From Bdellovibrio bacteriovorus (GTDB taxonomy: Bacteria > Bdellovibrionota > Bdellovibrionia > Bdellovibrionales > Bdellovibrionaceae): 64,000 nt of DNA. Position numbers and translations under genes: made by a program. The stretch's first letter is position 1, and each line of letters opens with the position of its first letter. The DNA is taken from positions 496,001-560,000 of the forward strand of contig NZ_LUKF01000016.1 of the NCBI RefSeq assembly GCF_001592755.1, given 5' to 3'. Of the stretch, positions 30,399 through 56,321 are shown piece by piece. The notes below the pieces were generated by a model, which had not been told where the DNA came from, searched no databases, and saw nothing but the letters and a program-made list of their open reading frames with translations.

Positions 30399-33300
30399 AT
30401 GAGATCCGGAACGTCCATCATATTCATTCTCATGATTTTCTTTGTTTTTTCGGCCCACTCTTCGCCGAGAACCTTCACGTATCAAGGACGTATTCTTAAA
30501 TCCGACGGAACTCCTCTTGAATACAATAATGTTAGCTTTGCCTTTGAAATTACAAACGCCTCTGGAAATTGCGTTATCTATAAAGAGCAAAGAAACAATA
30601 TCAATATGCAAGGTTCCGGTGGGGTCTTTGATGTTCCCATCGGCTCGGGAGTAAAGCTTTATCCGACGACAGCCGGTTATGATTTAAGAACTGCTTTTAA
30701 CAATGCGGTTTCTCATAATTGTGAAGGCGGATCGACTTACCTTCCGCAAGAAGATGACATTCGTATCCTGCGCGTGCAGTTTCATGATGGAGTCGGCTGG
30801 AAAGCGATCACTCCCAATAATGAAATTCGTGCCGTGCCATTTGCTTCCTTTGCAACATCGGCCTCTAAATTAGGCGATAAAATCGCCGATGATTTCGTTT
30901 TAAAAACATCCGTTGGTGCGTGCGCCATTGGACAGTATCTGACTTATGATGGCACAAGCTTTTCTTGTCAGAACGATGCCGGTGGCGCGGGAATGGTCAG
31001 CGACGTGAACGTGACAGCCCCGCTGACAAAGGGCGGAACGGCTTCTATTCCAAGTATTGGCATTTCTGTAGGCACAACCGCGGGAACTGTTGCCGCTGGA
31101 AATGATTCGCGCTTTTTGAATGCCGAACGTCTGCGTGGAGTGAATGTATCGTCAACACTTCCGTCCTCGGGGGGACAAGTTCTTCAATATGATGGCAGTC
31201 AATGGGGTCCGGCAGCTTTAGGAATTTCGAGTATCACGGGATTGCAAACGGCTTTAAATGACAAAGTCGCCGTCACAATGTTTCCAACATCTTGTTCGGC
31301 GGGACAATCTTTGGTGTTCGTCACACCGGCAAATAAATTTGATTGCTACAATATTCAAATCTCTGAATCGCAAATAACGGGAACGATTTCGGGCGCAAAA
31401 ATTTCTGGAAATATCACGGGAAATGCGGCGGGCTTTACTGGGAGTTTGAACGGCGATGTCACCGGAGCTCAAGCTGCAACGGTTGTTGGAAAAATTCAAG
31501 GTGTCGACATTGATACGACGACACCAACCGCTGGTCAGGTTTTAAAATTTGTTGGTGGCAAGTGGACTCCCGCTGCCGACATTGGTACCTCCAATGCGGT
31601 TACTAACAGCGGCAACGCTACAAATATTAAAGTCGACACCAATGCCAACAGACCTGCAACAGGTGCTGTCGGCGATATTTACATGGCTTCAGATATCAAC
31701 ACCACTTTCGTGGGTTCCGGCACCGGTTGGTATACTGTCGGGACCTCAAACTTAGCTTACACTTCAGGAACACTGCCTGTTGCACGCGGTGGAACGAATA
31801 GCACTACGGCTTTGAATAACAATCGCGTGATGATGTCCTCGGGTGGTGCCATTGTTGAAGCGCCTGCCTTAACAGATGGACAGCTTCTCGTCGGTCGAAC
31901 CGGAAATTCTCCAGTCGCCGCGAATCTTGTCGCCGGCACTGGTGTGACGGTGACGAATGCTGCGGGTTCAATCACTATTTCTGCAAATGGAGGACTGGCT
32001 CCAGGTGGAACTGCTGGCGGAGATCTGAGTGGCACTTATCCAAACCCGACCGTCGCCAAAATCCAGGGAACTTCCGTTTCAGCGACCGCTCCTTCAGGGA
32101 CGGGACAAGTCTTACGTTACAATGGAACGAACTATGCAGCGAACTTTTTAAGTCTTGCGGATATTCGTTCGACGGTAACACCCGCGAATACTATTTTTCC
32201 TTCTTCTCCATGTGCCGCTGATAAAACTTTGAACTGGTCGGTTCTAACGGATACTTTTACCTGTCAGAATATTGGAATCGCCGATTCGCAAATCACCTAT
32301 TCTTCTAAATCCGCAAAAACTTTTTTAGCCGCGCCCACGGGTGCTGCGGGGGCTCCAACATTTAGAACCTTGGCGTCCACAGACTTACCAACAAGTGGCG
32401 TGACTGCCGGAACTTACACATCAGTTACCGTAGATACATATGGTCGTGTGACGGCCGCAACGAATCCAACAACCGCTTCAGGTTATGGCATCACTGACAC
32501 CTTCGTTCAGAACGGAAATTCATTCGGTGCAGCGGCGGTCTTAGGGACTAATAATGCACAGCCCTTAAGTTTTGAAACGAACGGAACGACTCGCATGAAT
32601 ATCCTTTCGACAGGAAATATTGGTGTGAATGTCGCAACTCCCCTGTCGCCTTTGCATGTCGACGGAATATTCATGGCCGGTGAAAATAGCGAACGCGCTA
32701 TTTCATTACAACCTGATGTGAGTTCAGGATTAACCGGGGCCGCTTCTGCCGCCCAAATTCGTATTTCCGAACCCAACTTTGATGAAGGGACCGCGGGTTC
32801 CACGTTTCTGACTCACGAGTCCGATGGATCCACCATTTTGGGAAATACAAGAAACAATGCAGGCCTCTCGAGCGTACGTTTTGTGACGACGCCAGATGCG
32901 GGTTCGCCCACGGAAAGAATGCGCATTCACTCGGATGGTTCTGTGAGCGTGGGCTCAACAGCCGCTCCGGTATTTATGACGGTGAATGCCGGTGGAACTG
33001 TGGCTCCTTATGTTCCAGCAACAGATCGCTTAGCTGTGATCGGTAATGCCAACACGGTCATCCAAGTAACAAGTCCCAATACGGCGGCAGGTGGAATTTA
33101 TTTCTCGGATCCCGAGGATCGCGATCCGGGTGGAATTGCTTATTCACATCTTTCAAATGCTATGTCATTCAGAGTGAATGATGCCACAAGCATGTACATT
33201 GATTCCAGCGGCAACGTCGGAGTTGGTACCACAAGCCCTGGTTTTAAGTTTGAAGTCAAAGGCGGCAATGCTCAGATCACCTCGAACACCACGATGGCCA

Positions 33301-34142
33301 ATACGGGTGCGCTTGGCGGACTTCGTATTTTTAACTCTCAATCTTCCAATTCTGCGGACTACATCAATATTGGTTGGATCGGTGAAAACAAGTACGGAAT
33401 TCAATCGGCTGACGAGTTGACCAATCGCGACCTCTTTCTAAATCCCTACGGTGGAAAAGTCGGTATCAACACCACGGCCTCAAGCCATGCGTTGACCGTC
33501 GCGGGACAAGCTTATGTCACTGATGGCGCCGGATTTGTAGAAATTCTGTCTCGCGCAGATTCTGCACTTAATGTCACTAATGACAATGGATCTAAGCGTG
33601 GCTTCACTGTCCATCACAATGCCACGACACTGTTATCCCAGTTTTACTATTGTCCCGGTGGGGCCTGCTCTTCAAAGATGACTTTTGATTACAACGGAAA
33701 TATGTGGATCGCGGGAACTTTAACTCAGGCTTCGGACCTGCGACTTAAAACCAATGTCGCACCTCTAGAAAATAGCTTGGATAAAATTCTTTCTTTGCAA
33801 GGTGTGAGTTACGACTGGAAAGATCCGCAAGGGCGTGGACACCAGATCGGTCTTATCGCTCAAGATGTCGAAAAGGTTTTTCCCGAAGCCGTCGAGACCA
33901 ATAAAGAAGGCTGGAAGGCCGTCGCCTATCAAAACCTAGTGGCTCCTTTGATTAATGCTATCAAAGAACTTCATGCCTTGGTTATGACTCAAAATGAGAA
34001 TCAAGATCGCGCTATTGCATCCTTGCAGGAATCTAACGAGATTCTGAAAACCGAAGTTCAAAACCTTTCAGAACAAAATCGCCTGCTGAAAGAGGCCCTG
34101 TGTGAATCTCATCCTCAGTCCAAGATCTGTCAAAAGAAGTAA
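30399..34142 (+). CDS. Fibre protein 1: secreted mosaic fibre adhesin with C-terminal S74 chaperone
   Basis: 1247 aa. Signal peptide about 1-22; conserved N-terminal module from FTYQGRILKSDGTPLEYNNV to about residue 150 (IRAVPFAS). A long Gly/Thr/Ser/Ala-rich beta-fibre follows with phage-tail-fibre-like units (GGDLSGTYPNPTVAKIQG, ARGGTNSTTA, SGNVGVGTTSP). At about 1110 comes an S74 intramolecular chaperone (SDLRLKTNV with the Ser/Lys self-cleavage dyad; HQIGLIAQDVEKVFPEAV), then a C-terminal coiled coil. Architecture matches the mosaic adhesive trimer proteins described from Bdellovibrio, which form trimeric surface fibres. It starts an apparent operon with the next two genes. No ribosome-binding site visible. 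Confidence 0.87.
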   Translation: MRSGTSIIFILMIFFVFSAHSSPRTFTYQGRILKSDGTPLEYNNVSFAFEITNASGNCVIYKEQRNNINMQGSGGVFDVPIGSGVKLYPTTAGYDLRTAFNNAVSHNCEGGSTYLPQEDDIRILRVQFHDGVGWKAITPNNEIRAVPFASFATSASKLGDKIADDFVLKTSVGACAIGQYLTYDGTSFSCQNDAGGAGMVSDVNVTAPLTKGGTASIPSIGISVGTTAGTVAAGNDSRFLNAERLRGVNVSSTLPSSGGQVLQYDGSQWGPAALGISSITGLQTALNDKVAVTMFPTSCSAGQSLVFVTPANKFDCYNIQISESQITGTISGAKISGNITGNAAGFTGSLNGDVTGAQAATVVGKIQGVDIDTTTPTAGQVLKFVGGKWTPAADIGTSNAVTNSGNATNIKVDTNANRPATGAVGDIYMASDINTTFVGSGTGWYTVGTSNLAYTSGTLPVARGGTNSTTALNNNRVMMSSGGAIVEAPALTDGQLLVGRTGNSPVAANLVAGTGVTVTNAAGSITISANGGLAPGGTAGGDLSGTYPNPTVAKIQGTSVSATAPSGTGQVLRYNGTNYAANFLSLADIRSTVTPANTIFPSSPCAADKTLNWSVLTDTFTCQNIGIADSQITYSSKSAKTFLAAPTGAAGAPTFRTLASTDLPTSGVTAGTYTSVTVDTYGRVTAATNPTTASGYGITDTFVQNGNSFGAAAVLGTNNAQPLSFETNGTTRMNILSTGNIGVNVATPLSPLHVDGIFMAGENSERAISLQPDVSSGLTGAASAAQIRISEPNFDEGTAGSTFLTHESDGSTILGNTRNNAGLSSVRFVTTPDAGSPTERMRIHSDGSVSVGSTAAPVFMTVNAGGTVAPYVPATDRLAVIGNANTVIQVTSPNTAAGGIYFSDPEDRDPGGIAYSHLSNAMSFRVNDATSMYIDSSGNVGVGTTSPGFKFEVKGGNAQITSNTTMANTGALGGLRIFNSQSSNSADYINIGWIGENKYGIQSADELTNRDLFLNPYGGKVGINTTASSHALTVAGQAYVTDGAGFVEILSRADSALNVTNDNGSKRGFTVHHNATTLLSQFYYCPGGACSSKMTFDYNGNMWIAGTLTQASDLRLKTNVAPLENSLDKILSLQGVSYDWKDPQGRGHQIGLIAQDVEKVFPEAVETNKEGWKAVAYQNLVAPLINAIKELHALVMTQNENQDRAIASLQESNEILKTEVQNLSEQNRLLKEALCESHPQSKICQKK

Positions 34143-34184: not shown

Positions 34185-34784
34185 ATGCACGTTCTCACTG
34201 TGACCTTGCTCTTAATAACCTCTGTAGCAGCGGCGGATGTTTGTCCCGACGGTCGCAAAAGTTCCGACTTTATCCAAGGCCCCTTGCAGTTTGTTCGCTG
34301 CCAGAACATTCAAAATGCTTACTTTGAAAAAGATCTTTTAAAGGGAGCGGACGCTTCTGGAAGCCATTTCTATAAAGTCGGATTTAACAAAGTAAATTTT
34401 GATCACGTTCAAATGACATCGGTAGAGTTCCGGGAAAACACTTTTGAAAAAGTAACGGGACTGAACTGGAATATTCAAAATTCTCGATGGATGGGTGGAA
34501 TAATAAAAGACAGCCATCTATCCAAGAATCGCCTCGACGCTTCCAAGTTGGGTGGAGTTAAAATCTATCGTACGAATTTAAGCGAAACCTCCTTAAAGGA
34601 CACAACCTGGAGCAACTGTTATTTCGAAGACGTAAATCTGGAAGGCGCGGATCTGCGCGGAGCACGCTTCGACATGTGTGTCTTTTTAAATGTACGTATG
34701 AAGGGAGCTTTATTTAACAAATACACGAAGCTTCCCATTTCTGACGCTCAAAGATCGCTTCAAGGCATGGTGTATTCACCATGA
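34185..34784 (+). CDS. Secreted pentapeptide-repeat protein
   Basis: 199 aa: signal peptide (about 1-17), then about 25 degenerate pentapeptide repeats of the A(D/N)LXX type (GADASGSHFYKVGFNKVNF; NLEGADLRGARFDMCVFLNV), predicted to fold as a right-handed four-sided beta-helix. Five Cys may form disulphides. It follows fibre gene 1 by 42 bp and overlaps the next gene by ATGA, so it is probably made together with the fibre. The role is unknown; a periplasmic or surface scaffold is an inference. Confidence 0.82.
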   Translation: MHVLTVTLLLITSVAAADVCPDGRKSSDFIQGPLQFVRCQNIQNAYFEKDLLKGADASGSHFYKVGFNKVNFDHVQMTSVEFRENTFEKVTGLNWNIQNSRWMGGIIKDSHLSKNRLDASKLGGVKIYRTNLSETSLKDTTWSNCYFEDVNLEGADLRGARFDMCVFLNVRMKGALFNKYTKLPISDAQRSLQGMVYSP

Positions 34785-37072
34785 ACAAGACACAACGGCT
34801 TTACGGCTTCTTTTTGTCTTTGACCCACATTGTGACCCTTTGGTTTTGGCGGGCCTTTGATTTCAACTACGGACTGTCGTACAAGCTTCAGAATTTAGAA
34901 TGGAATCCTTGGCCATTTATTCCTGAAGGGCACGTCTTATTTATTCAGGAACATGCGGTGGCGGTTACCAGTGTCTATATACTTTTGTCCCTTCTGACAC
35001 CTTTACTATTTCTGTTTGAAAAGCCTAAAGACCCCGTTCGTCTTGGCGCATTCACACTGACCCTATTCGCTAAGCTTGCGATCTTTTTTTCCTCTTATGA
35101 TTTTATGGGTAACTATCACTATATGGGCAACTTGTTGTTAGCCCTTTATGTGGTCTCTGGCGCCCATCTGCTTTTTTTACAAATATCATTAGCGCTTTTT
35201 TATTTCGGCGCCGGACTTTTAAAGTTCAATGCCGAATGGATCACGGGTTCGGCTCTTCTTCGTGAAACATTTTTGCAAGGATTCTGGTTACAGGCGGCCT
35301 GCGTTTACGTCATCTTGCTGGAAACAGTCTTGATCTGGTTTTTATTTGCCAAAAAAAAATATCTTCGGCTCATTACTTTGGCTCAACTGGTTGTCTTTCA
35401 TATTTTTAGCTGGCACATCGTCGGATTTTATTATCCGTCGGTGATGTTTCTATTACTGACTGTATTTCTTCTTTATCGGCCAACGGATTTTAATTTCAAG
35501 AACAACCTTCCGAAGTGGGCTCCTGTCTATTTTGCCCTTTTCTTAGCGGCTCAGCTTTATCCAAAGCTGCTTAATAAGAATGAAGCTTTGACCGCCGAGG
35601 GACGAATGCTTTCTTTGAATATGCTTGATGCCAAAACAGAATGCCTGGCATCGTTTGAGCTTCCAACCCAAGACGGATATTTGTACCTGGATCAACCGCT
35701 TTCTTATGCGATTCGCATCCGCTGTGATCCGTTGGTTTATTTTAATTATGCAAAAAAACTGTGCGCGCAATCTTCACATGTCACTGTCCCGAGTGTTAAG
35801 ATAAATCTGAAATCACGCAAACAGACCGATTATCAAGACACCTGGGTCATTCGTGACCAAGAAATGTGTGACAAAGAACTTACCTATTCGATCTTCCTGA
35901 ATGATTGGGTTCACGCAAGTCGCGAACTTTCGGCGCCGACATCAGCACCGGAAAAAGCTTACTCTCATTGGCGGGAAAATCCGCAACGGACCGGAGAATC
36001 TCGTCATCTGATGAAGGCCTCGTTTACCACTTCCTTGCTGCCCTTTCCTTTTCAGGAAAACATTCACTCTGCCGGTAAATCCAGTCCTATAGCTTTTAAA
36101 AACCTTTGGTTCGTAGGAAGCGACAGCGGTTCCTTGTACGCCTTTGATAATTCTTCTTTTCTTTGGAGAGACTATTTCCCTAAGCCTATCTTTGGCTTTC
36201 ATGGGTCCGGTGTGACCACCGAAGATGGAGATCTCTATCTAGGTGCTTACGACGGAATTCTGCATAAGATCCGCAGTAAAGATGGAAAAAGAATCTGGTC
36301 CGTTAAATTGGGAAGTGCGATTGGATCTTCTCCCCTATTGGTAAATGGTTTGCTGTATGTCGCGGTCGAAAATCTGCCTGATAGCAGCACTTTCTTTGCG
36401 CTGGATCCGCGCAGTGGGGCTATTCGCTGGAGCTCAAATAAAATCAAGGGACTTGCTCACGCTTCGCTGAGCTATCACGCCAAAAGCGAGCAGGTATTCG
36501 GGGCTACGGGTACCGGTGAAGTGATTTCCTTTCACTCGCGGTCCGGGAAGGAAATGTGGCGTATAAACGTCTCGGGAAAGATTATTTCTACGCCTTTAGT
36601 CACTGACGAATCCGTGGTCATTGTCAGTACAGAGGGAGATGTCCAAGCACTGAATGTCCGTAACGGAACCTTGCGCTGGCATCATCAGTTAGGCTCGGGA
36701 TCTCGGGCCTCCCCTTCTTATCATTCTAAAGAAAATATCTTGATAGTTCCCTCTGAAAATGGCGACATCACGGCTTTGCAAGCCGCCGATGGGGCCGAGC
36801 TTTGGCGGAAGATGAATGCCCACCTTCACGTATCGAGCGGAATCATTGCCCGTTACGGTAAGGCCGATGTTTATATAGATCAGTGCCAGGAAAAAACTTT
36901 GTGTTTTCTAAATGTGAAAACTGGCACCGTGCTAGAAACTTATTCCCTGCCAGACAGTTTTTCATCAACGCCTATGCTGAAAGAAGACGGTCTTTATATC
37001 ACTCTTGATGGGTCAGCGGGCTTATGGCGCTTGGGTGAGAACGTAAAGACTGCAAAACAGTCTGCAAAGTAG
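34781..37072 (+). CDS. HTTM membrane domain fused to a PQQ-type beta-propeller
   Basis: 763 aa. Residues about 1-260 are a multi-helix membrane domain of the HTTM type (vitamin K-dependent carboxylase-like), with the marker FYFGAGLLKFNAEWITG. Residues about 265-400 are a periplasmic linker domain with several Cys. Residues about 410-750 are a PQQ/BamB-like propeller with recurring blades (GSLYAFDNSSFLWRD, GEVISFHSRSGKEMW, GDVQALNVRNGTLRW, GDITALQAADGAELW). No gamma-carboxylase catalytic residues could be verified. Coupled to the pentapeptide gene (ATGA); its 3' end overlaps the convergent GT-C-like gene by 74 bp. Confidence 0.8.
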   Translation: MNKTQRLYGFFLSLTHIVTLWFWRAFDFNYGLSYKLQNLEWNPWPFIPEGHVLFIQEHAVAVTSVYILLSLLTPLLFLFEKPKDPVRLGAFTLTLFAKLAIFFSSYDFMGNYHYMGNLLLALYVVSGAHLLFLQISLALFYFGAGLLKFNAEWITGSALLRETFLQGFWLQAACVYVILLETVLIWFLFAKKKYLRLITLAQLVVFHIFSWHIVGFYYPSVMFLLLTVFLLYRPTDFNFKNNLPKWAPVYFALFLAAQLYPKLLNKNEALTAEGRMLSLNMLDAKTECLASFELPTQDGYLYLDQPLSYAIRIRCDPLVYFNYAKKLCAQSSHVTVPSVKINLKSRKQTDYQDTWVIRDQEMCDKELTYSIFLNDWVHASRELSAPTSAPEKAYSHWRENPQRTGESRHLMKASFTTSLLPFPFQENIHSAGKSSPIAFKNLWFVGSDSGSLYAFDNSSFLWRDYFPKPIFGFHGSGVTTEDGDLYLGAYDGILHKIRSKDGKRIWSVKLGSAIGSSPLLVNGLLYVAVENLPDSSTFFALDPRSGAIRWSSNKIKGLAHASLSYHAKSEQVFGATGTGEVISFHSRSGKEMWRINVSGKIISTPLVTDESVVIVSTEGDVQALNVRNGTLRWHHQLGSGSRASPSYHSKENILIVPSENGDITALQAADGAELWRKMNAHLHVSSGIIARYGKADVYIDQCQEKTLCFLNVKTGTVLETYSLPDSFSSTPMLKEDGLYITLDGSAGLWRLGENVKTAKQSAK

Positions 37073-38837
37073 CCCGGTTAATTTCTTGTGCCTTTTGCGA
37101 AGGCTCCGCCTTTTGCAAATTCTCGACGACCGTGCCTAAGTATTCTGCGCGATTTAAAGTTGTCCGATGTTGATACTGCGTAAGTTGATAAAGTAAGGAT
37201 TCGTAGCTTTCAGGTATCGCCTCTGTCATGTTCGCTTGCAAAGCCAAATCTGCATGCAAAAGCTGCCCCGCTATGGCCACAAGAGGATGATTATTTTCTA
37301 CTCCACCCGGCAAAGGGGAAGGCTTTTGAATAACATCCAATGGAAAATGAATCTGAAAATGATCGCGAATGTAGGTCATCGTCAGATTTCGACAGAACAG
37401 CTCTTCTTCTGTCATCGGTTGGCTGTTGACCTCTCGGTAAGCCTTTATAAGATTTTTTTCTTCACAGTTATTGGACGTTTCAAGGCAGTTTAAAATCTTT
37501 GGAAGAACGTCTTTACAGACGCCCGGTGTTGTCCACACCAAGTGATCCGCAGACCTGGCGGAAACAAAGTTCAAGCGGGTTTCCAGCTCCGTTAGTTTTT
37601 CGTCCATGGATTTAGACGAAAAAAGATTTCGTTCAAAATTTCGAATCAACGTGTCTGAGGACGGAATCATCAAAAGCAGCGCGGTCAGAACAGCACCCAG
37701 CGAAAGAGGTCTTTGCAACTTAGAAAGGTTTTGGTTCGCGATGTATGCAAAGTTAATGGCTAATACCGGAAGGAAAGAATAGATAAAGCGAGCTTCTCCG
37801 GGGTTCGAGAAGAAAACGGCCGCGCACTGACAAAGAATAAATAATAAGAAAAGGCGGGTTATCGGGTTCGAAAGAATCTGCGATATATAGAAAAGTGTAC
37901 AAAGAAATATTAAAAGATAAAGACCGCTGAAGATCTTACTGAGGGTCGTCATTCTTCCTTTCATTGGATCAGGATAGAAAGGCCCGTCAAAGATGTTCAG
38001 CAAGCTGCGCGATTGCAAGGCCGCCACCCACGGTCGTTCTTGCACACAGGCCTTCGCCGTTTGCACATAGTAAAACGTATCGCGAAAGTCATTTTCTAAA
38101 AATAAAGACCGCGTTTCTCTAAGAGACCAAAATGATGGCGGTCGAAACCAGAATGAATTCTGCTCATTTTTAAAATCCAGCGTGGGTGCTTGACACCAGG
38201 CCTGAGCGATATTGGCGCCGCGGTTTAAATTCAAAGATGCTGTTCCTTGCCGATCAAATCGACTGTTCAAAAGCGAAAGACCCGCTAACAGAAACACCAT
38301 GAGCGCAAAGCCAACCAGACTCTGCTTCCGAGACATTCTTTTTGCCTCAATCGGAAAAGTGAGCGCGTAGAACGAAAAAAGCAAAAGGAATGGCAGAATA
38401 ATATTTCTTAACGCAAACGAGATACCTAATAAAACGAAAATGCCTAAATGGCGTGTCCACGATGACACTTTGAAAACTTCAAAGTAAAGCCCCAAAGCCA
38501 ACACCGTCAGGAACTGAAAAAGGCTTTCGCTTATGTTTAACGAATTCAAATAAATCTGCATGGGATTAAGCAACAAAAAGAGCCCTAAAACCCAGTTTTG
38601 CCATGGCGAAGCGACATGAAGATGACGCAGGAATCGATAGACTAGATAGGCGGTGCCCAGCCCGAAACTCTGATTCAGCCAATAAAGAAGACTCAAGCGA
38701 TATTCTAAAAGACCAATAGTATCTAAGATTTTATAAATAAGGGCCAGCCAAACCGGATAAGAACCCCATGCCGCAAAATTTCCGAAAACTTCGCCAGAAA
38801 CCACGGCCAACGCTCGCTCATCGAAGCGAAAGGCCAT
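36999..38837 (-). CDS. GT-C-like polytopic membrane protein (putative glycosyltransferase)
   Basis: 612 aa from the first ATG: about ten membrane helices, an early acidic loop (FRFDERALAVV) like the catalytic Asp/Glu loop of PMT/ArnT-type lipid-linked sugar transferases, and a soluble C-terminal part of about 200 residues. The frame stays open for 36 more codons (to 38945) and encodes a convincing first helix (LRGLFLLSILLRFAFFVFFY), yet has no ATG, GTG or TTG. Either a rare start such as ATC/ATT is used or coupling from the upstream pilin frame applies. It lies just after the pilin operon, so pilin or surface glycosylation is a guess. Confidence 0.65.
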   Translation of the reverse strand: MAFRFDERALAVVSGEVFGNFAAWGSYPVWLALIYKILDTIGLLEYRLSLLYWLNQSFGLGTAYLVYRFLRHLHVASPWQNWVLGLFLLLNPMQIYLNSLNISESLFQFLTVLALGLYFEVFKVSSWTRHLGIFVLLGISFALRNIILPFLLLFSFYALTFPIEAKRMSRKQSLVGFALMVFLLAGLSLLNSRFDRQGTASLNLNRGANIAQAWCQAPTLDFKNEQNSFWFRPPSFWSLRETRSLFLENDFRDTFYYVQTAKACVQERPWVAALQSRSLLNIFDGPFYPDPMKGRMTTLSKIFSGLYLLIFLCTLFYISQILSNPITRLFLLFILCQCAAVFFSNPGEARFIYSFLPVLAINFAYIANQNLSKLQRPLSLGAVLTALLLMIPSSDTLIRNFERNLFSSKSMDEKLTELETRLNFVSARSADHLVWTTPGVCKDVLPKILNCLETSNNCEEKNLIKAYREVNSQPMTEEELFCRNLTMTYIRDHFQIHFPLDVIQKPSPLPGGVENNHPLVAIAGQLLHADLALQANMTEAIPESYESLLYQLTQYQHRTTLNRAEYLGTVVENLQKAEPSQKAQEINRATLQTVLQSLRSHPSAISPLTHQE

Positions 38838-38923
38838 GTGAATGTTCCACGCCTCGCTTTTATAAAAAAATACGAAGAAAGCGAATCGAAGAAGAATGCT
38901 AAGAAGAAAAAGTCCCCGTAAGG

Positions 38924-39517: not shown

Positions 39518-39524
39518 AAAGGAA

Positions 39525-45640: not shown

Positions 45641-48600
45641 ATGAAACACGGAACGTATCTTGTCTTGGTTCATATTCTTCTGGCCTCCTTAGGAAGCTTC
45701 GCCGCTCCTAATCTGCTGACTTATCAAGGCCGCATTGTGAAAGCCGACGGTACGGCACTAGAATATAACAACGTTAGCTTTCTTTTTGAAATTACGAATA
45801 ATACCGGTGCCTGTGTCATCTATCGTGAACAGAAGAACGGAATCAATATGACTAACAGTCATGGGGTTTTCGACGTTCCCATCGGTGCAGGTACGAAGCT
45901 TTTCCCGTCTTCTCCGACGAAAACTCTTTTAAATGCTTTCAATAACAGCACGACGCATGATTGCGCCGATGCGGATAACAATGTTGCTGGCAACTACACT
46001 CCTGCGGTAGGTCACACGCGTTTGCTTCGTGTGCAATTCCACGATGGTACGGGATGGAAGGTTATTAGCCCGGACAATGAAATTCGTTCTGTTCCTTTTG
46101 CCGCCTATTCGCAATCTGCAGAGAAACTGGGAGATCTAGGCGCAAATGATTTCATCGTGAAAACCGGAATTCCTTCTTGTAATGCCGGAGAGTTTTTAAC
46201 TTGGAATGGAACGGCCCTTACTTGCGCAGCGGTGTCAGGTGCAAGTGGCGGCACGGTGACTAATGTCACTTCCGCCAACTCTTATCTTACGGTCGCTAGT
46301 AATACATCGACTCCAGTTCTAACTTTGAATGTGGGTTCTACGGCAAACACCGTTGCTGCCGGCAATGACCCGCGTTTATCAGACTCTCGTCCGCCGAATG
46401 GCGCCGCTTCCGGCGATTTAAGTGGAACTTATCCAAATCCAACTGTGGCAAAGATTCAGAATGTCGCAGTTGCTACGGCGGTTCCGACAACGGGGCAGTT
46501 TTTTAAGTTCGATGGTTCCCAATGGGCGGCTTCAGCCATTGCGATTTCGGATGTGACAAACTTGAATTCCACATTCTCTAATTATCACACCACCGCGGCC
46601 TTCAATGCCGCTGTAGGAAGTGCGAATTGCGCCGCTTACCAAACTCCTTACTGGAATTCGGTTTCGGGCTCTTTTCAGTGCCAAGCGATCAACGTATCCG
46701 TCGCCGGCGATGTCAGTGGAAGTATTGGTGCCGTATCGGTTAATAAAATTAAAGGTGTCGATGTTGATACGACCGGATTATCTTCAGGACAAGTTTTGAA
46801 ATACGATGGAACGAAGTGGGCGCCTGCGAATGACAGTAATGCCGGTGGTACAGTTACAAATATTGCAACCGGCACGGGTCTTAGCGGCGGCCCGATCACT
46901 TCGACGGGAACTATTTCTTTGGCAAATACGACAGTCACCGCGGGTTCTTATACGCGAGCCAATATTACGGTGGACGCTCAGGGTCGTTTAACTGCAGCGA
47001 GCAATGGATCGGCCGTGAATCTTGCCACGGATATCACAGGAACTCTTCCAATAGCGAACGGCGGTACTGGCCAAACAAATGCGACAGACGCCTTCAACGC
47101 GCTTTCTCCTCTGACAACTAAAGGTGATATTGTCGTGAATGACGGAACCAATGACATTCGTCTTCCAGTAGGTATAAATGGCCAAGTTCTTTCCGCGAAC
47201 TCGGCCCAGGCCTCGGGCTTACAATGGGTGACTCCCACTAATGGAACTGTCACCAATGTTTCAGGCACGGCACCTATTTCGGTTTCATCCGGTTCAACAA
47301 CTCCTTCAATTTCAATCGTGGACGCGACGACCTCAGCAAAAGGAGCTGTGCAAGTAGGCGCTGGTATCGCGGTCTCTGCGGGAACTATCAGTGCGGACCC
47401 TGCTAACTTCCCTTCGGCTGTTCCGGTTTCTAAAGGTGGTACGGGCGCAACCTCTTTGACTGCAAATAGACTTCTTGCTTCCAATGGAAGTGGCAGTGCG
47501 ATCACAGCATTTAACTGTGCGACGGGACAGCTTCTTACTTTTGATGCCACAGGTATGATGACCTGTACATCTTTCGCAAATGCTTCGGTTTTTGTGAATG
47601 GCGGAAACTCTTTCGCAGCGGCAGGAACTTTAGGAACAAATGATTCCAATGCATTGAATTTAGAAACAAACAACACGGTTCGACTTACGATCAGCGCGGC
47701 AGGTGACCTCGCCGTCAATACGACGGTCGACACAAATGCAAAACTCAAGATCCGTTCTGGTTCGGCGACTCAAGCACCTCTGAGTTTAGACAGTCCGGCC
47801 TCAGGTATTCCTAGTATTGATTTTCTTCGCAATGGAACTTGGAAGGGAACTTTTGGATTCACAAATGGTGCTGGGGATGAACTTTATGTCTCTAACGGCG
47901 TGAATGGCCCTGTGATTTTTGATACCAATAACGACGAAAAAATGCGCATTCAAGCTGATGGTAAAGTGGGCATCGGTTCAAGTGGTCCAGGGGCCTTGTT
48001 ACAAGTCGGTGCTTGGGATGCCCAAGCGACTTACAATAGCATTTTCGTAGGAAGTTATCACAACACTTTAGGACAAGCTCAGTTCGTTGGTAACTGGAAC
48101 AGCACTGGATATTGGGGTATTGGCCCTGCGACAAATCCAGCTAACGGTGTCGTGCGCATTGGTAATGCAAATACGGCTGGTGATTGGAGAGCTACGCAGG
48201 ATTTGGCGCTTCAAGTTCCAGGAAGAATCGGTATCGGCCCGACGGTCACAGCTCCCGAAAGAGTGTTGCACATCAAAGGAACTGGCGGGCTTGATGATGA
48301 TCTTTATATTCAATCGCAGCACAGTGCGAGTGGCGAAGGTTCCGTGATTATCACGCGTGCGCGTGATTCTGCCGGAACGCCCGCCGCTGTTCTTACTAAT
48401 GACAGTTTAGGATTTCTTGCCTTCCGTGGATATGACGGCTCAGCCTTTGTAAATGCCGCAAGCATTAACTCCTATGCCGCATCTGACTTTGCGACTTCAA
48501 AATCATCAACGATGATATTCAGTACAATAGCGTCGGGAACATCTGCTGAACGAATGAGAATTCATTCTGACGGGAATGTCGGGATCGGAACAACGGCACC

Positions 48601-49228
48601 TCCGGGACACCTTACAGTCTCATCTGCGGCGGCGTATACGATGATCTATAATACCAACACTTCCGCCGGCGGTCAGGCTTGGCGTTGGTTATCTTCATCA
48701 ACAGCAGCGCCTCTTGGTGCGAACGCAATGTGTTTTGCTTTGAATGTTTGTTACTTCAGTCTCTACTCTACGGGTAATGCCACCCTCTCTGGCACTCTCA
48801 CTCAAGCTTCGGATGTCCGTCTTAAGAATGATATTAAACCCATCCTGAATGCGCTGGACCGAATCACAAATATCCAAGGTGTGACTTATCAATGGATCGA
48901 CAAAAATAAAGACCAGACAAAACAAATGGGTCTTATCGCCCAAGAAGTTGAAGCTGTTTTCCCTGAAGTCGTGAAAACGGATAGCAACGGCTTTAAGTCT
49001 GTCGCTTATCAAAATCTTGTAGCTCCGATCATCGAAGCCATTAAAGAGTTGAACCATAGATGGTCTTCAGATTCGGAAGTCATTCACAAAGAATTAGTCT
49101 CACAAAAAAGAGAGATCGCTTCACTGAAGGAAGAAAACGAAAAGCTGAAAACCCAGGTTCAAGAAATTTCTTCTATCAAAAAGGCGTTGTGCAAACAGGA
49201 TAAGAGTCTCGACTTCTGTATAAAGTGA
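45641..49228 (+). CDS. Fibre protein 2: secreted mosaic fibre adhesin with S74 chaperone
   Basis: 1195 aa. Signal peptide about 1-21, N-terminal TYQGRIVKADGTALEYNNVS module to about 155, then a fibre nearly the same in protein sequence as fibre 3 from about 200 to 690 (GDLSGTYPNPTVAKIQ, IANGGTGQTNATDAF, TSAKGAVQVGAGIAV, VSKGGTGATSLTANR). The distal part diverges. The S74 domain at about 1055 has SDVRLKNDIKP and QMGLIAQEVEAVFPEVV, with a coiled-coil end. Codon choice differs from fibre 3 across the shared blocks, so the duplication is old. No ribosome-binding site is evident; the CCGATAAG element abuts the start. Confidence 0.87.
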   Translation: MKHGTYLVLVHILLASLGSFAAPNLLTYQGRIVKADGTALEYNNVSFLFEITNNTGACVIYREQKNGINMTNSHGVFDVPIGAGTKLFPSSPTKTLLNAFNNSTTHDCADADNNVAGNYTPAVGHTRLLRVQFHDGTGWKVISPDNEIRSVPFAAYSQSAEKLGDLGANDFIVKTGIPSCNAGEFLTWNGTALTCAAVSGASGGTVTNVTSANSYLTVASNTSTPVLTLNVGSTANTVAAGNDPRLSDSRPPNGAASGDLSGTYPNPTVAKIQNVAVATAVPTTGQFFKFDGSQWAASAIAISDVTNLNSTFSNYHTTAAFNAAVGSANCAAYQTPYWNSVSGSFQCQAINVSVAGDVSGSIGAVSVNKIKGVDVDTTGLSSGQVLKYDGTKWAPANDSNAGGTVTNIATGTGLSGGPITSTGTISLANTTVTAGSYTRANITVDAQGRLTAASNGSAVNLATDITGTLPIANGGTGQTNATDAFNALSPLTTKGDIVVNDGTNDIRLPVGINGQVLSANSAQASGLQWVTPTNGTVTNVSGTAPISVSSGSTTPSISIVDATTSAKGAVQVGAGIAVSAGTISADPANFPSAVPVSKGGTGATSLTANRLLASNGSGSAITAFNCATGQLLTFDATGMMTCTSFANASVFVNGGNSFAAAGTLGTNDSNALNLETNNTVRLTISAAGDLAVNTTVDTNAKLKIRSGSATQAPLSLDSPASGIPSIDFLRNGTWKGTFGFTNGAGDELYVSNGVNGPVIFDTNNDEKMRIQADGKVGIGSSGPGALLQVGAWDAQATYNSIFVGSYHNTLGQAQFVGNWNSTGYWGIGPATNPANGVVRIGNANTAGDWRATQDLALQVPGRIGIGPTVTAPERVLHIKGTGGLDDDLYIQSQHSASGEGSVIITRARDSAGTPAAVLTNDSLGFLAFRGYDGSAFVNAASINSYAASDFATSKSSTMIFSTIASGTSAERMRIHSDGNVGIGTTAPPGHLTVSSAAAYTMIYNTNTSAGGQAWRWLSSSTAAPLGANAMCFALNVCYFSLYSTGNATLSGTLTQASDVRLKNDIKPILNALDRITNIQGVTYQWIDKNKDQTKQMGLIAQEVEAVFPEVVKTDSNGFKSVAYQNLVAPIIEAIKELNHRWSSDSEVIHKELVSQKREIASLKEENEKLKTQVQEISSIKKALCKQDKSLDFCIK

Positions 49229-49349: not shown

Positions 49350-52300
49350 ATGAGAGCCGGTACGTCACTTATTCTATGTCTCGTTTTTTTTGCCATGTCT
49401 GCGGTCCATGCGGCGCCGGCCTTATTCACCTATCAAGGGCGTATCTTAAAAGCAGATGGTCAGGCCTTAGAACACAGCTCTGTCAGTTTTATTTTTGAAG
49501 TCACAAACCCTAACGGCACTTGTGTAATTTATCGTGAACAAAAAGACGGCATTAACATGGTGAACTCCAAGGGCGTCTTTGATGTGCCTATTGGTTCAGG
49601 CACAAAACTTTTTCCTGCCGATCCTTTCTATTCTCTCTTAGACGCTTTCAACAACGCCAAGACACATGATTGCGTCGGCGGGGCAACTTATTCGGCGTTA
49701 TCCGGGGACATTCGCCTTCTTAAAGTTCAGTTTCATGATGGCAGTGGCTGGAAAGTCATTTCACCGTCGAATGAAATCCGCACAGTTCCTTTTTCCGCGT
49801 ATGCTCATTCCTCTGAAAGATTGGGTACTAAAACGGAAAATGATTTCTTCGTCAAAACGGGATTGCCAGCCTGTTCTGCAGGTGAGTTCTTAAGCTGGGA
49901 TGGAACGGCTTTAGGATGTGCACCCGTCTCAGGAGCCAGCGGTGGCACCGTCACCAACGTGACTTCTGCTAACTCTTACATCACTGTTACCAGCGGAACT
50001 TCCACACCCCAACTGACGTTGAATGTGGGCACGGGAGCGGGCACTGTCGCTGCCGGAAATGATTCACGCTTGAGCGATGCTCGTACGCCCACGGGAACTG
50101 CGAGTGGGGATCTTAGTGGCACTTATCCCAATCCTTCTGTTGCAAAAATTCAAAATGTGGCAGTTGCAAATGCGGCCCCTTCTGCAAATCAGTTTTTTAA
50201 ATTTGATGGGTCTCAGTGGACTGGCTCTTCTATTGCAATTTCAGATGTTACGAACTTAAGTGCAACGCTCGCGACCTATAAAACGACGGCTTCGTTTAAT
50301 ACCGCCGTCGGCAGTGCGAACTGTGCGGCTCACCAAACTCCTTACTGGAATTCAGTGTCTGGTTCATTTCAGTGTCAGGCGATCAATGTTTCTGTTGCTG
50401 GAGACGTCAGCGGAACAATCGGCGCCGTTTCGGTTAATAAAATCAAAGGTGTCGACGTCGATACGACAGGCTTAACTTCGGGACAAGTTTTAAAATATGA
50501 TGGAACTAAGTGGGCTCCGGCTAATGACAGCAATGCTGGCGGCACCGTTACTAATATTGCAACGGGAACAGGTCTTAGTGGCGGACCTATTACTGCAACT
50601 GGAACTATTTCGTTAGCGAATACGGCTGTGACTGCTGGATCTTATGGCTCGACGACCCAGGTGGGAACTTTTACGGTGGATGCTCAAGGACGCTTAACGG
50701 CGGCAAGCAACACCGCGATCGCATTCCCCGTCACTTCGGTGGCAACAAAAACCGGAGCCGTCACTCTTGATTATGGTGATATCACTAGCGCTGCTTCAAA
50801 ATATCTGACTTATCGTCCTAACAATGTCGCCTGTACCGACGGTCAAACTTTGAAATGGGTGACGGCGAATTTACGCTGGGAATGTGCGAACGATACGGAT
50901 ACATCAAGTGGCGGAACCGTCACCAATATCGCCACAGGTACGGGCCTGAGTGGTGGTCCGATTACTTCCACCGGAACTATTTCGCTTGCAAACACCGCAG
51001 TAACGGCGGGCTCCTATACTCGCGCAAATATCACTGTCGATGCCCAAGGCCGTTTAACTTCGGCAACAAATGGCGGCGCAATCAATCTTGCTACTGAAGT
51101 CACCGGCACCCTCCCTATTGCTAACGGCGGTACGGGACAAACTTCAGCAACAGCCGCTTTTAACGCTCTTTCTCCTCTGACAACCAAGGGTGATCTTGTT
51201 GTTAACGATGGCACAAATGACATTCGTCTGCCAGTGGGCACCAATGGACAAGTTCTTTCTGCAAACTCGGCACAAGCATCAGGCTTACAATGGGTGACAC
51301 CTCCTAATGGAACTGTGACCAGCGTTTCAGGAACAGCTCCTATCGCCGTCGCAACGGGAACTTCAACGCCTGTTATTTCTATTAGTGATGCAACAACGAG
51401 TGCAAAAGGTGCCGTGCAAGTAGGCGCTGGTATTGCGGTCACTAGCGGTACTATCAGTGCCGATCCAGCCAATTTTCCAACGACAGTTCCCGTTTCTAAA
51501 GGTGGTACGGGAGCTACATCACTGACTGCAAACAGACTTCTCGCATCGAATGGAACCGGGTCCGCGGTCACGGCATTTAACTGCGCGGTCGGACAGCTTT
51601 TAACGTTTGATGGCACGGGAATGATGACATGTACGTCGTTTGCTAATGGTTCCGTTTTTGTAAACGGTGGTAATTCATTCGCAGGCACAGCAACGTTGGG
51701 TACAAACGATGCGAATTCACTTGTTCTAGAAACTAACAACTCCGCTCGCATAACAATTCTTTCGGGCGGCAACGTCGGTATTAAAGAAGCTTCTCCGGCC
51801 GGCAACTTGCATATCACTGACGCCGCCGGCGCAGATATTCGCTTACAAGACAACAACGCAACAACTCCTGCGGCTCTTCGCATTCTTTCTGAAGGCGGTG
51901 TTAACTACATCGAATCCGGTGCAAACTTCACCTCGGGTTCCGCGGCGGATCTTCACTTCACGGATATGATGGGACAAAAGCGCTGGATGACGGTGAAAGC
52001 CAATGGTTGGGTGGGTATCGGTGATACAACACCGTCCTCTCAACTAGAGGTCACAAGTCTGAGTACTAGTCCGACCGTCGTTGCACGATTTAATATGCTC
52101 CCGGTTCCAACAGCCGATGTCGCAGGAAACCTTCACGGCTCTTGGTCTACGATCACTCCTAACAATGGCTTCAACTATTCGGGATCTATTTATGGAGCCG
52201 TAAACCGAATCGAAACTGGAGCCAGTCAGACAGGTTCCATTAATGCCGCAGTAGGTACTACAGCTGACGTGTATAACAAATCGTCTTCCGCTATTGGCAC

Positions 52301-53480
52301 TGCATCTGGTGTGTACGGAGCCGTCTTAAATACTTCAACCGGTTCCGTATCAGCGGCAAGAGCCGGCTACTTTACAGTTACTAACTCCGGAGGCGGGACC
52401 GTCAATAACGCCTATGGTATTTACATTGACGGCATCGCAGGTACATCCAAATACGGGCTTTATCAGGCTGATGCCGCTGCCAACAATTACTTTGCTGGAA
52501 GATTAGGTGTGAACACGAATGCCCCTCTCGGCAACCTCCATATCGGAAGTAGCGGAACTGGCGCTTTCGCTTACTCTTCCTTTCAGATGGGAAGTGACGC
52601 CACAGCAACTCATAACTTCCATTGGGCAAACGAATATACGAATGGCGCGCGGTCACTACGTCTTTATAACGGCAACTTGGGTTCAGGCACTCCTTTAATG
52701 TCCGTGAATGCGGCTGGTGGAGTCACGATGGGTGAAGGAACAGGCGGAGCCGGACTTCTTTCATTGAAACCAGGAAACATCGACCACGTTTACTTGCAGT
52801 TATTCGCGCGAACGGCTTCTCCCAACACACGTTCTGCCTGGATAGGTTTTGGCGCCAATGCGACCATTGACCTTTCTGTGACCAATGAACTTGAAGGTGG
52901 CCAAATTTATTTCAATACAAAATCCGGTGGAGCTCAAAGTGCTCGCATCATCTTCGCGGCAGATGGAACCGCTTACAAACCAGGCGGAGGCTCTTGGGCC
53001 GCCACTTCCGACGCTCGCCTTAAAACCGACATCAAAGATTTTAATCCGGGCCTTGACGAACTTCTTAAGGTTCATCCCGTGAGCTTCCGCTATAACGGTA
53101 AAGGTGGAACTGTTGACGATGGAAAACACTATATCGGGGTTATCGCACAAGAGTTAGCTCCGATTGCGCCTTACATGATTCAAAAAGAAAAGACGAAGAT
53201 CAATAAGACGGACAAAGAAGAATCTGAAATTTACAAAGTGGATCCTTCGGCCTTCACTTATATGTTGATCAATTCAATCAAACAACTGACTCAGAAGTTT
53301 TCGTCCTTCGAAAGCAAAGTGAAATCCTTGTTTAACAATCATGAAGACCGCTTGGAAAACCTCGAAAAACAAATGGTTTTATTGCAAAAGCAAAATGAAG
53401 AACTGAAAAGACAGAACGAAGAACTTATAAAGCATTTGAAGTCTCAAGGTGAGACGCGTGCTCCGGCTTCTTCTAAGTAA
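49350..53480 (+). CDS. Fibre protein 3: secreted mosaic fibre adhesin, largest, with S74-type end
   Basis: 1376 aa. Signal peptide about 1-21, the same N-terminal module (FTYQGRILKADGQALEHSSV), shaft shared with fibre 2, plus an internal duplicate of a 54-58-residue shaft unit. A distal insert at about 900-1050 (VYNKSSSAIGTASGVYGAV, NAYGIYIDGIAGT) is shared only with fibre 4. The S74 domain at about 1217 is of a different subtype from fibres 1 and 2 (SDARLKTDIKDFNPGLDELL, YIGVIAQELAPIAPYMIQ) and is followed by a long Lys/Glu coiled coil. Likely a trimeric surface fibre. Confidence 0.87.
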   Translation: MRAGTSLILCLVFFAMSAVHAAPALFTYQGRILKADGQALEHSSVSFIFEVTNPNGTCVIYREQKDGINMVNSKGVFDVPIGSGTKLFPADPFYSLLDAFNNAKTHDCVGGATYSALSGDIRLLKVQFHDGSGWKVISPSNEIRTVPFSAYAHSSERLGTKTENDFFVKTGLPACSAGEFLSWDGTALGCAPVSGASGGTVTNVTSANSYITVTSGTSTPQLTLNVGTGAGTVAAGNDSRLSDARTPTGTASGDLSGTYPNPSVAKIQNVAVANAAPSANQFFKFDGSQWTGSSIAISDVTNLSATLATYKTTASFNTAVGSANCAAHQTPYWNSVSGSFQCQAINVSVAGDVSGTIGAVSVNKIKGVDVDTTGLTSGQVLKYDGTKWAPANDSNAGGTVTNIATGTGLSGGPITATGTISLANTAVTAGSYGSTTQVGTFTVDAQGRLTAASNTAIAFPVTSVATKTGAVTLDYGDITSAASKYLTYRPNNVACTDGQTLKWVTANLRWECANDTDTSSGGTVTNIATGTGLSGGPITSTGTISLANTAVTAGSYTRANITVDAQGRLTSATNGGAINLATEVTGTLPIANGGTGQTSATAAFNALSPLTTKGDLVVNDGTNDIRLPVGTNGQVLSANSAQASGLQWVTPPNGTVTSVSGTAPIAVATGTSTPVISISDATTSAKGAVQVGAGIAVTSGTISADPANFPTTVPVSKGGTGATSLTANRLLASNGTGSAVTAFNCAVGQLLTFDGTGMMTCTSFANGSVFVNGGNSFAGTATLGTNDANSLVLETNNSARITILSGGNVGIKEASPAGNLHITDAAGADIRLQDNNATTPAALRILSEGGVNYIESGANFTSGSAADLHFTDMMGQKRWMTVKANGWVGIGDTTPSSQLEVTSLSTSPTVVARFNMLPVPTADVAGNLHGSWSTITPNNGFNYSGSIYGAVNRIETGASQTGSINAAVGTTADVYNKSSSAIGTASGVYGAVLNTSTGSVSAARAGYFTVTNSGGGTVNNAYGIYIDGIAGTSKYGLYQADAAANNYFAGRLGVNTNAPLGNLHIGSSGTGAFAYSSFQMGSDATATHNFHWANEYTNGARSLRLYNGNLGSGTPLMSVNAAGGVTMGEGTGGAGLLSLKPGNIDHVYLQLFARTASPNTRSAWIGFGANATIDLSVTNELEGGQIYFNTKSGGAQSARIIFAADGTAYKPGGGSWAATSDARLKTDIKDFNPGLDELLKVHPVSFRYNGKGGTVDDGKHYIGVIAQELAPIAPYMIQKEKTKINKTDKEESEIYKVDPSAFTYMLINSIKQLTQKFSSFESKVKSLFNNHEDRLENLEKQMVLLQKQNEELKRQNEELIKHLKSQGETRAPASSK
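50538..50711 (+). repeat. Shaft repeat unit, copy 1 (in fibre gene 3)
   Basis: Encodes 58 residues beginning GGTVTNIATGTGLSGGPIT and ending TVDAQGRLTAASN; repeated at 50910-51071 with four residues fewer and many synonymous differences. Fibre 2 has a single copy. Confidence 0.85.
50910..51071 (+). repeat. Shaft repeat unit, copy 2 (in fibre gene 3)
   Basis: 54-residue copy of the unit at 50538, the version closest to the single copy in fibre 2 (TAGSYTRANITVDAQGRLT), so copy 1 plus its linker looks like the addition. Confidence 0.85.
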
Positions 53481-53936: not shown

Positions 53937-56321
53937 ATGAAAATCTTGAACGTTTCGGTTTTTTTCATGTCTCTAGTAGGGACTGCAACGACCTTCGCAG
54001 TTCCAGGTTCTCTAACCTATCAAGGAAGAATTAAAAATTCCGACGGACTTCCACTTGAAGTTAACGGCGTTCGCTTTGAATTTTCCATTACCAATCCCTC
54101 GGGCTCTTGCGTTCTCTATAAAGAAATATCTTCGGCGATTGATATGCGCAATTCTTCCGGCGTCTTTGACGTCCCTATCGGCACAGGCACAAAAAATTAT
54201 CCCGTCGACCCAGGCTTCAAGCTGTTGAATGCCTTTAACAATGCCGTCACGTTAAATTGTGAAGGCGGAGGCACCTACGTCCCTATCGCTGATGACAAAA
54301 GACTTTTAAGAGTTCAATTCTATGATGGCACAGGTTGGAAGCTCATCAGTCCCGACAGTGAGATCCGCAGTGTTCCTTTTGCCGGTCACGCACAGTATGC
54401 TGAGACCGCGCAAAAACTTGGCTCAAATACAGTCGCCGACTTTATTTTAAAATCCAGTGTGCCTCTTTGTGGTGCTGGTGAGTATCTTCGACATATTGCT
54501 CCCGCCGGCACATTTCAATGCACAGTTCCCGTTGTGAATGGAAATGACGTCAGCGGAAATATTTCCGGTAGCTCTGCGGGCTTTACTGGAAATTTAAGCG
54601 GTGATGTTTCGGGAACTCAAAGTGCGACAAGCGTTGATAAAATCAAAGGCGTCGCCGTTAATATGACGGGCCTTGCTTCTGGAAAAGTTCTTAAATACAA
54701 CGGAACAAATTGGGCACCTGCAGATGATACGGATACCAATACCGATGATAAAATCCGCGGTGTCGATGTTTCTGCAACCACGCCGGTCAGTGGACAAGTT
54801 TTAGTTCACAACGGATCGGCTTGGGCTCCCCAATATTTTGGCATGGGACAATTGCGATCGACAGTCACGGGCACAGCTCAAGTTCCCGCTTCGTGTTCTA
54901 CTGCCGATAAAACTTTGACTTGGAATTCAATCACGGACTCATTTGCTTGCACCACGATTGCGATCGCGAACACTCAAGTAACAGGCCTTGGAACAGCGGC
55001 TACGAAAAACTTCGGAACCTCTTCAGGAAATCTTGTAGAGCTTGATGGCACCGGAAGGATTCCGGCTTCACTTCTCCCCGCTTCTAGCGGAAACATTCTA
55101 GACGGCGGCAACAGCACTGGCGCCACCGTGAACGTCGGAACCAACGACGGACAGGCGCTAAGTTTCGAGACCAACAATTCGGCGCGAATGACTATCACCA
55201 GTGCCGGAGATATTGGAATTGGCACGGCATCTCCCGGATATAGACTGCAAGTCAATAAAACTTCCAATGCTACGGCCGCTGGCAATATCGCCGCTTCTTT
55301 TAATTTCATGTGGGCGGCACCAACAAGTTCCAGCGCAAGCACTTTTGTCGGTCAATACAACGGCGCTGAAAGCGATGGAACATCCGCCGCTATCACCGGT
55401 GGCATTTTAGCGCAGATCAACTACACACATCACAACGGCTCAAACGCTTTAGATAAACTTGTTGCTTCATGGTCCGGTACTTACAATAAATCCTCAGCGA
55501 CGGTGGGATCCTCACTAGCAGTTCAGGGTGAAGTGAATAACGATGCCTCGGGAATAATTTCGCAAGCGATAGGACTTCACTCACGCGTTAGAAATAACGG
55601 CAGTGGCTCAATCACAAATGCTTATGGCGTCTATGTCGATGGCGTGCAAGGAACAAACAAGTGGTCCATCTACACGAATGATCCTACAGTGCCGTCGTAC
55701 TTTGCCGGTTATGTGGGTATCGGAACGAACTCTCCAACAGCTCCACTGGATGTCGTCGGTGGCTCCGCTTATTTTACGCGCTCTCAGAATGACGCCTGGG
55801 GAAGTAACTTTGTTGTTCGCAAAGATCGAGCTGGCGCCATAGTTCAAAACGCAGATGAAGTGGGATACGTGAACTTTGCAGCGCATGACGGATCTACCTA
55901 CAGAACCGGAGCTTCGATTGCCGCATTAGTTGACGGCGTTCCTGGCCTTAACGATATGCCGACCCGTCTTATCTTCGCCACAACTTCAGATGGTTTCAAT
56001 GCTCCTGTCGAACGCATGCGAATCACCAGTGGCGGTAACGTCGGCATTGGAACGACGAATCCTACAGAACGGTTGGACCTTGGCGGAGGTAATATCAAAA
56101 TTGGCCACGAAATCGTCAGTGTAGCCCAGCCTGCGGGGGCCGCAGTAGGTTGGTATTTCGCCAGTTGCCCTGCGGGAAAATATGTGACCGGCGGTGCCTG
56201 TACGAGCGGATCTGGATCTATGGTTTTAAATTCGGACCTCACCCAGACTACTTACGGCTGTTATAAGCCGGATACTAGTTCCAACATCGTCGTTAAAGCG
56301 ATTTGTATGAACGTTCGCTAA
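53937..56321 (+). CDS. Fibre protein 4: short mosaic fibre adhesin with a Cys-rich tip, no S74
   Basis: 794 aa. Signal peptide about 1-20, N-terminal LTYQGRIKNSDGLPLEVNGV module to about 150, fibre units (NISGSSAGFTGNLSGDVSG, LRSTVTGTA followed by ADKTLTW as in fibre 1), then the insert shared with fibre 3 (TYNKSSATVGSSLAVQG, NAYGVYVDGVQGTNKW). After GNVGIGTTNP the usual S74 chaperone is missing. Instead a tip of about 75 residues holds four Cys (FASCPAGKYVTGGACTSG, TTYGCYKP, AICMNVR). The tip is the likely receptor-binding part. Confidence 0.85.
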   Translation: MKILNVSVFFMSLVGTATTFAVPGSLTYQGRIKNSDGLPLEVNGVRFEFSITNPSGSCVLYKEISSAIDMRNSSGVFDVPIGTGTKNYPVDPGFKLLNAFNNAVTLNCEGGGTYVPIADDKRLLRVQFYDGTGWKLISPDSEIRSVPFAGHAQYAETAQKLGSNTVADFILKSSVPLCGAGEYLRHIAPAGTFQCTVPVVNGNDVSGNISGSSAGFTGNLSGDVSGTQSATSVDKIKGVAVNMTGLASGKVLKYNGTNWAPADDTDTNTDDKIRGVDVSATTPVSGQVLVHNGSAWAPQYFGMGQLRSTVTGTAQVPASCSTADKTLTWNSITDSFACTTIAIANTQVTGLGTAATKNFGTSSGNLVELDGTGRIPASLLPASSGNILDGGNSTGATVNVGTNDGQALSFETNNSARMTITSAGDIGIGTASPGYRLQVNKTSNATAAGNIAASFNFMWAAPTSSSASTFVGQYNGAESDGTSAAITGGILAQINYTHHNGSNALDKLVASWSGTYNKSSATVGSSLAVQGEVNNDASGIISQAIGLHSRVRNNGSGSITNAYGVYVDGVQGTNKWSIYTNDPTVPSYFAGYVGIGTNSPTAPLDVVGGSAYFTRSQNDAWGSNFVVRKDRAGAIVQNADEVGYVNFAAHDGSTYRTGASIAALVDGVPGLNDMPTRLIFATTSDGFNAPVERMRITSGGNVGIGTTNPTERLDLGGGNIKIGHEIVSVAQPAGAAVGWYFASCPAGKYVTGGACTSGSGSMVLNSDLTQTTYGCYKPDTSSNIVVKAICMNVR

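Follow-up and report, generated by a model that had tools for sequence, protein, structure and literature searches.

Four mosaic adhesive trimer fibres at a chromosomal fibre hotspot in Bdellovibrio, one with a tip replaced in place between related species

Four fibre genes with a common base

Prey recognition by a broad-range predator is a long-standing question. We analysed a 64,000-nucleotide stretch of a Bdellovibrio bacteriovorus genome (RefSeq assembly GCF_001592755.1, contig NZ_LUKF01000016.1, positions 496,001 to 560,000; hereafter the window), in which an original prediction made from the DNA alone had placed four secreted fibre genes sharing an N-terminal module and had assigned them to the published mosaic adhesive trimer (MAT) family. 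Four long open reading frames (ORFs) are present, all on the + strand and named here in window order: MAT1 (30399..34142, 1247 amino acids (aa)), MAT2 (45641..49228, 1195 aa), MAT3 (49350..53480, 1376 aa) and MAT4 (53937..56321, 794 aa). Each starts with a Sec-type signal peptide, as judged by eye, and all four N termini match NF053851, the NCBI model Bdello_MAT_N for the N-terminal domain of the Bdellovibrio mosaic adhesive trimer, at 221-231 bits (E 8e-69 to 6e-66; cut-off 60 bits), with scores of 230.6 bits for MAT1 (base domain 30429..30908), 227 bits for MAT2 (45674..46165), 226.6 bits for MAT3 (49377..49859) and 221.3 bits for MAT4 (53964..54455). The same model matched in none of 14 control genomes. 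N-terminal modules unrelated to the Bdellovibrio fibre set would have gone against the prediction, and the matches to the family model came out in its favour. The base of MAT1 is 58-59% identical to the bases of MAT2 to MAT4. The family base is a conserved, beta-rich domain of about 130 aa that follows the signal peptide, and single-chain prediction gave it a beta-rich fold here too (pLDDT 81); structure searches turned up nothing convincing in the PDB and, for viral models, weak Ig-like similarities at most, and the lack of a confident PDB neighbour was also reported in the MAT paper (PMC10769870).

The distal ends differ as foreseen, with three S74 ends of two subtypes and one fibre without. 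MAT1 to MAT3 carry an S74 chaperone/protease domain (PF13884, cut-off 22 bits) with an intact SDxxxK motif: 71.8 bits and SDLRLK at residue 1112 in MAT1 (domain 33732..33893, profile match 77.7 bits), 67.1 bits and SDVRLK at 1057 in MAT2 (48809..48976), and 50.3 bits and SDARLK at 1220 in MAT3 (53007..53171). Over the C-terminal 150 residues, MAT1 is 48-62% identical to MAT2 and 26-30% identical to MAT3, and we therefore distinguish subtype A (MAT1 and MAT2) from subtype B (MAT3). In MAT4, a Pfam search and a motif scan found neither PF13884 nor SDxxxK, and a separate C-terminal module stands in place of S74, as in the non-S74 subgroup of the family. At least two capping-loop motifs occur in the distal part of each fibre.

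These proteins are mosaics of one another and of known MATs. MAT1 joins the base common to all four to a C-terminal end shared with MAT2 and not with MAT3, while identity between MAT2 and MAT3 runs at 66-98% per 50-residue window across residues 150-650 and falls to 21-36% past residue 700. MAT4, with a base and shaft of the Bd1334 type, is 62-82% identical to Bd1334 of strain HD100 over residues 1-400 and 22-34% identical beyond. A conserved base with exchanged distal parts is thus found in the MAT comparisons, and the same pattern was reported for Bd1334 and Bd2133 in the 2024 MAT paper (PMC10769870). No recent gene conversion between MAT2 and MAT3 was seen, orthologues being closer than paralogues in every comparable window. 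The match to the curated model, the signal peptides, the S74 domains, the capping loops and the mosaic junctions together establish MAT1 to MAT4 as members of the published MAT family, as the prediction had named them; it is an ordinary membership of a kind already known. Across the whole genome, profile searches found 21 MAT bases and 14 S74 proteins.

The MAT4 tip was replaced between related species

Genome G018 is the closest relative found for the locus: the proteins of its flanks and intervening genes are 87-99.7% identical to those here, and it holds clear orthologues of 19 MATs of this genome. The predicted combination of constant base and variable tip is borne out by this orthologue comparison, with the qualification that 18 of the 19 pairs retain their tip, the last 110 aa being 87-99% identical over the aligned part (one short fibre aligned over 90 residues). 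The last 110 aa of MAT4 and its G018 orthologue, by comparison, share 36.9% identity over 84 residues (E 8e-8). At the DNA level, window positions 53500-55754 align with G018 L023:9622-11909 at 86.6% identity, nothing aligns between positions 55755-56305 and L023:11910-12184, and identity resumes at 88.7% from position 56306 on, delimiting a cassette of 551 bp here (55755..56305, + strand) and a different one of 275 bp in G018. The left breakpoint falls directly 3' of the codons of a capping-loop motif, VGIGTNSPTAPLDV (55713..55757, + strand; located by alignment, motif scan and DNA breakpoints), at which the exchange begins. One MAT4 tip has therefore been cleanly replaced in place between related species, and tips are otherwise mostly stable. 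Tip exchange between orthologous MAT loci is not described in the titles and abstracts of the post-2023 Bdellovibrio MAT literature that we found, most subscription journals lying outside that search.

The tip of MAT4 in the window, which we call T1, is likely the older of the two, with replacement in the G018 lineage, since an outgroup and a 3' scar both point that way. In the outgroup genome G006 the MAT4 orthologue adjoins that genome's own copy of g56421, the right flank of the locus, and has a base 88% identical and a T1 tip 84% identical to those of MAT4, with other beta-helix modules between. In G018, the DNA after the gene's own stop codon includes ATGAgCGaTCGCTAAAC, which matches the last T1 codons; the scar reads ATGAGCGATCGCTAAACTCAAG at the place of the last T1 codons ATGAACGTTCGCTAA or ATGAACGTGCGCTAA in this genome and G006. 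The outgroup carries more weight than the scar, which is short.

Separately, one further orthologous pair of S74 fibres (L048 in this genome, L065 in G018) has a strongly divergent beta-helix part (dN 0.4, around residues 700-754), a possible second cassette change.

A recurrent tip follows a phage-like beta-helix module

The distal beta-helix module of MAT4 (55707..56096, + strand) is 44% identical to cyanophage tail fibres (E 1e-19), matches phrog_9942 (E 1.5e-26) and also matches the solved MAT tips 8ond, 8oml and 8ol4. Beyond it lies the T1 tip domain (56064..56318, + strand), with four cysteines at residues 744, 755, 775 and 790, which we delimited by cross-genome, library and motif searches. 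Of 141 genomes examined from the order, 8 have T1-like tips, and these eight belong to one family. The carriers in G018, G006, G020 and G061 exceed the MAT cut-off by a clear margin, that in G041 reaches 71.9 bits to the MAT model over part of the domain, and for G059 and G068 the reading covered the C-terminal ends of the fibres. The T1 tip recurs on MAT-type fibres within this one family. The replacement tip of G018, searched alone, matched in no other genome of the genus.

T1 matched nothing in PHROGs, the PDB, phage records or the scanned viral contigs, and no Pfam family at a score that passed the cut-off; we accordingly set aside a phage origin for it, for which the viral-contig scans, phage records and PHROGs had been the sources. 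A Pfam hit to Resistin, a cysteine-rich protein, lies below cut-off (E 0.0014) and was treated as probably chance. The AlphaFold2 model of T1 from a single sequence has a pLDDT of 43 and was not interpreted.

The locus is a genus-wide fibre hotspot

The four genes lie at a site with the layout EamA, fibres, g56421, prmA, rsmE. The left flank, outside the fibre set, is a conserved EamA transporter gene (29400..30287, + strand; Pfam and cross-genome comparison), and the right flank, g56421 (56421..57134, + strand), encodes a conserved secreted protein of 237 aa with no assigned function, followed by prmA and rsmE and likewise outside the set. We rejected g56421 as a MAT anchor, since 38 of 40 genomes carry it and three of these lack MATs; it is best described as a conserved flank with no sign of MAT specificity.

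MAT counts between these two flanks are four for this genome and G018, three for G020 and G004, two for HD100, G001, G008, G015 and G022, and one for G010. The site is empty in G007, G014 and G021, and also in G024 of a sister genus; at the empty sites the flanks stand roughly 150-550 bp apart. These counts omit G006, in which the locus is split, and G023 and G017, which have one short fibre each. HD100 is represented by G005, which we take to be HD100 or a near-identical genome because 334 residues of its 1151-aa MAT align with the Bd1334 crystal construct 8oml with no mismatch; Bd1334 is described as having 1151 residues and a Trp at its end (PMC10769870). The genome of the window is a different Bdellovibrio. 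In G002 the EamA-g56421 site holds a sensor kinase. The EamA-prmA site is therefore a genus-wide fibre hotspot holding 0 to 4 MATs, and the empty form in the sister genus, seen in one genome, suggests that the empty site is ancestral.

Truncated MATs in G006 and G017 were considered as phase variants and rejected as such, as their junctions combine poly-T or (ATAG)n with unrelated sequence and may be assembly faults. The G017 ORF (L025:7313-8848) ends in (ATAG)n-type repeats beside long purine-rich repeats and an HNH-like ORF, possibly an insertion or an assembly fault. In G006 the MAT locus occupies two places about 450 kb apart (L031:6051-8174 and L050:9533-13268), with the break inside the MAT3 orthologue, through either rearrangement or misassembly.

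Junctions near capping loops, and purifying selection on the fibres

Six junctions chosen post hoc, each a border of a divergent beta-helix or tip segment (one each from the G018 comparisons of MAT4, L037, L039 and L048 and two from the G006 comparison of MAT4), fall within 1-14 residues of the centre of a capping-loop motif, against a mean of 80 for random distal positions (permutation P = 5e-5). Across 13 MAT pairs with G018, from which the tip-exchanged MAT4 was excluded, pooled dN/dS was lowest in the base (0.025), followed by the shaft (0.046), S74 (0.055) and the beta-helix part (0.089). Every segment lies far below 1, and the fibres are thus maintained under strong purifying selection, strictest in the base; at segment resolution the pooled values do not point to positive selection through point changes. 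Synonymous divergence varies widely among segments, from 0.03 to more than 2, which would fit recombination between lineages.

Relation to known fibres

Of the 21 MATs published for HD100 (Caulton et al. 2024, PMC10769870), 13 have an S74 end and 8 lack one. The fibres described here resemble that set in signal peptide, base domain, shaft, capping-loop beta-helices, the presence of both S74 and non-S74 ends and 21 copies per genome, but the set is the species' own, HD100 has two fibres at this site and not four, and the T1 tip family has no match in HD100. MAT4 shares residues 1-400 with Bd1334 at the identity given above, and in its distal beta-helix it matches the solved tips of Bd1334 and Bd2133, yet it ends in the short T1 tip where Bd1334 has a Trp-cage and Bd2133 a beta-sandwich. 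The S74-ended tail fibres and endosialidases of phages (T5, K1F; PF13884) likewise carry a C-terminal S74 chaperone/protease with SDxxxK, whereas MAT1 to MAT3 combine it with a MAT base and a bacterial secretion signal, and no virion genes were found nearby among the genes examined by Pfam. Within an ordinary MAT membership, the main addition is an unusually clean example of tip exchange in situ.

Interpretation and alternatives

Taking together family membership, domain layout, the hotspot, the cassette replacement with its likely direction and purifying selection, we read MAT1 to MAT4 as MAT fibres in a genus-wide hotspot, whose repertoire changes as whole genes are gained or lost and, occasionally, as distal cassettes are replaced (probability about 0.87). 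In this model each secreted fibre would be held at the predator surface by the common base, continue as a shaft of repeats and then as beta-helix modules that begin with capping loops, and contact prey through its distal part. In MAT1 to MAT3 the C-terminal S74 chaperone would fold the distal beta-helix and, by analogy with HD100, would be expected to cleave itself at the Ser of SDxxxK; in MAT4 the small Cys-containing tip would take its place. The hotspot repertoire would shift as whole genes come and go, and distal cassettes would now and then be replaced at capping-loop junctions, rather than altered by fast point mutation, with homologous recombination as the presumed route. Trimerisation, surface display and binding of prey or prey glycans by MAT1 to MAT4 are likewise expected from HD100. 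A bolder version, in which the EamA-prmA site is a dedicated hotspot for gain, loss and re-tipping of MATs, short tip cassettes are swapped at capping loops between fibres that are otherwise orthologous and single recombinations rewire prey recognition while the base stays fixed, is one that we put forward tentatively and consider somewhat improbable as a whole.

Several points weigh against our interpretation. The six junctions were chosen post hoc, some being estimated from alignments; length differences in L036 and L049 sit in the shaft, away from capping-loop motifs; the replaced G018 tip is known from one genome; and trimer state, location and binding would be carried over from HD100. Most single MAT deletions there had little or no predation phenotype (PMC10769870), and the role of a single fibre in prey choice may for that reason be small.

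That the two MAT4 tips differ by ordinary sequence divergence would draw on their weak common pattern (CPAGK, ~37% over 84 aa), through which they may be distant relatives; it is very improbable, given that the alignment, at ~87% identity up to a single point, breaks off there and resumes at ~89% in the stop region, that the cassettes differ in length by 276 bp, that the other 18 orthologous pairs all keep at least 87% in the tip and that the T1-end scar is still present in G018. We give even less credence to the four genes being phage tail fibres of a decayed prophage, an idea to which the many tail-fibre families matching the S74 and beta-helix parts, and the 44% identity of the MAT4 module to cyanophage fibres, lend some colour. 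The signal peptides and MAT base speak against it, as do a layout that is syntenic across the genus, the dispersal of the 21 copies over the genome, and flanking genes of ordinary cellular function (EamA, RNA pseudouridine synthase, prmA, rsmE); the surrounding genes examined by Pfam, a subset of the window ORFs, were all cellular, with no virion genes linked to the fibres, so that a prophage is refuted as far as linked genes go. As true MATs, the fibres of this locus might instead serve self-adhesion, vesicle anchoring or the handling of killed prey, and not prey recognition. This is unlikely but deserves real weight, as published MATs include vesicle- or bdelloplast-deposited members and single deletions rarely affect predation (PMC10769870); the replaced tip, and a dN/dS that is higher in the distal beta-helix than in the base, fit outward-facing, partner-dependent tips better, neither being decisive.

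With fibres of the MAT family as the preferred reading, the two related species form a natural experiment on the tip's possible effect on the prey bound: 19 orthologous fibres, one with a differing tip and an identifiable older allele. A comparison of the two MAT4 tips would directly test whether recognition is set by the tip, and the hotspot provides a fixed place for reading the fibre repertoire across the genus.

The stretch between MAT1 and MAT2

The fibres are arranged 1+3, MAT1 being parted from MAT2 by an 11.4-kb stretch outside the fibre set (34185..45539) that holds pentapeptide-repeat, PQQ-propeller membrane protein, 612-aa membrane protein, pseudopilin-like, KhpA-like and TIGR02147 regulator genes. 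Of the intervening genes predicted originally, a prepilin-type protein (39525-39920) and membrane proteins were recovered, and a lipoprotein was left unconfirmed. The stretch is also present in G018 and lies between the flanks in no other genome in which both flanks were seen. In a genome-by-genome search, its 953-aa pseudopilin-like gene had a strong match only here and in G018, the two being 98% identical, and G008 has a relative at 24%; the encoded prepilin-like protein (39917-42778) seems by eye to hold C-type-lectin-like segments, and Pfam gave no match for it. Directly 5' of MAT2 stands the TIGR02147/DUF4423 regulator gene (44730-45539), which may control the fibres.

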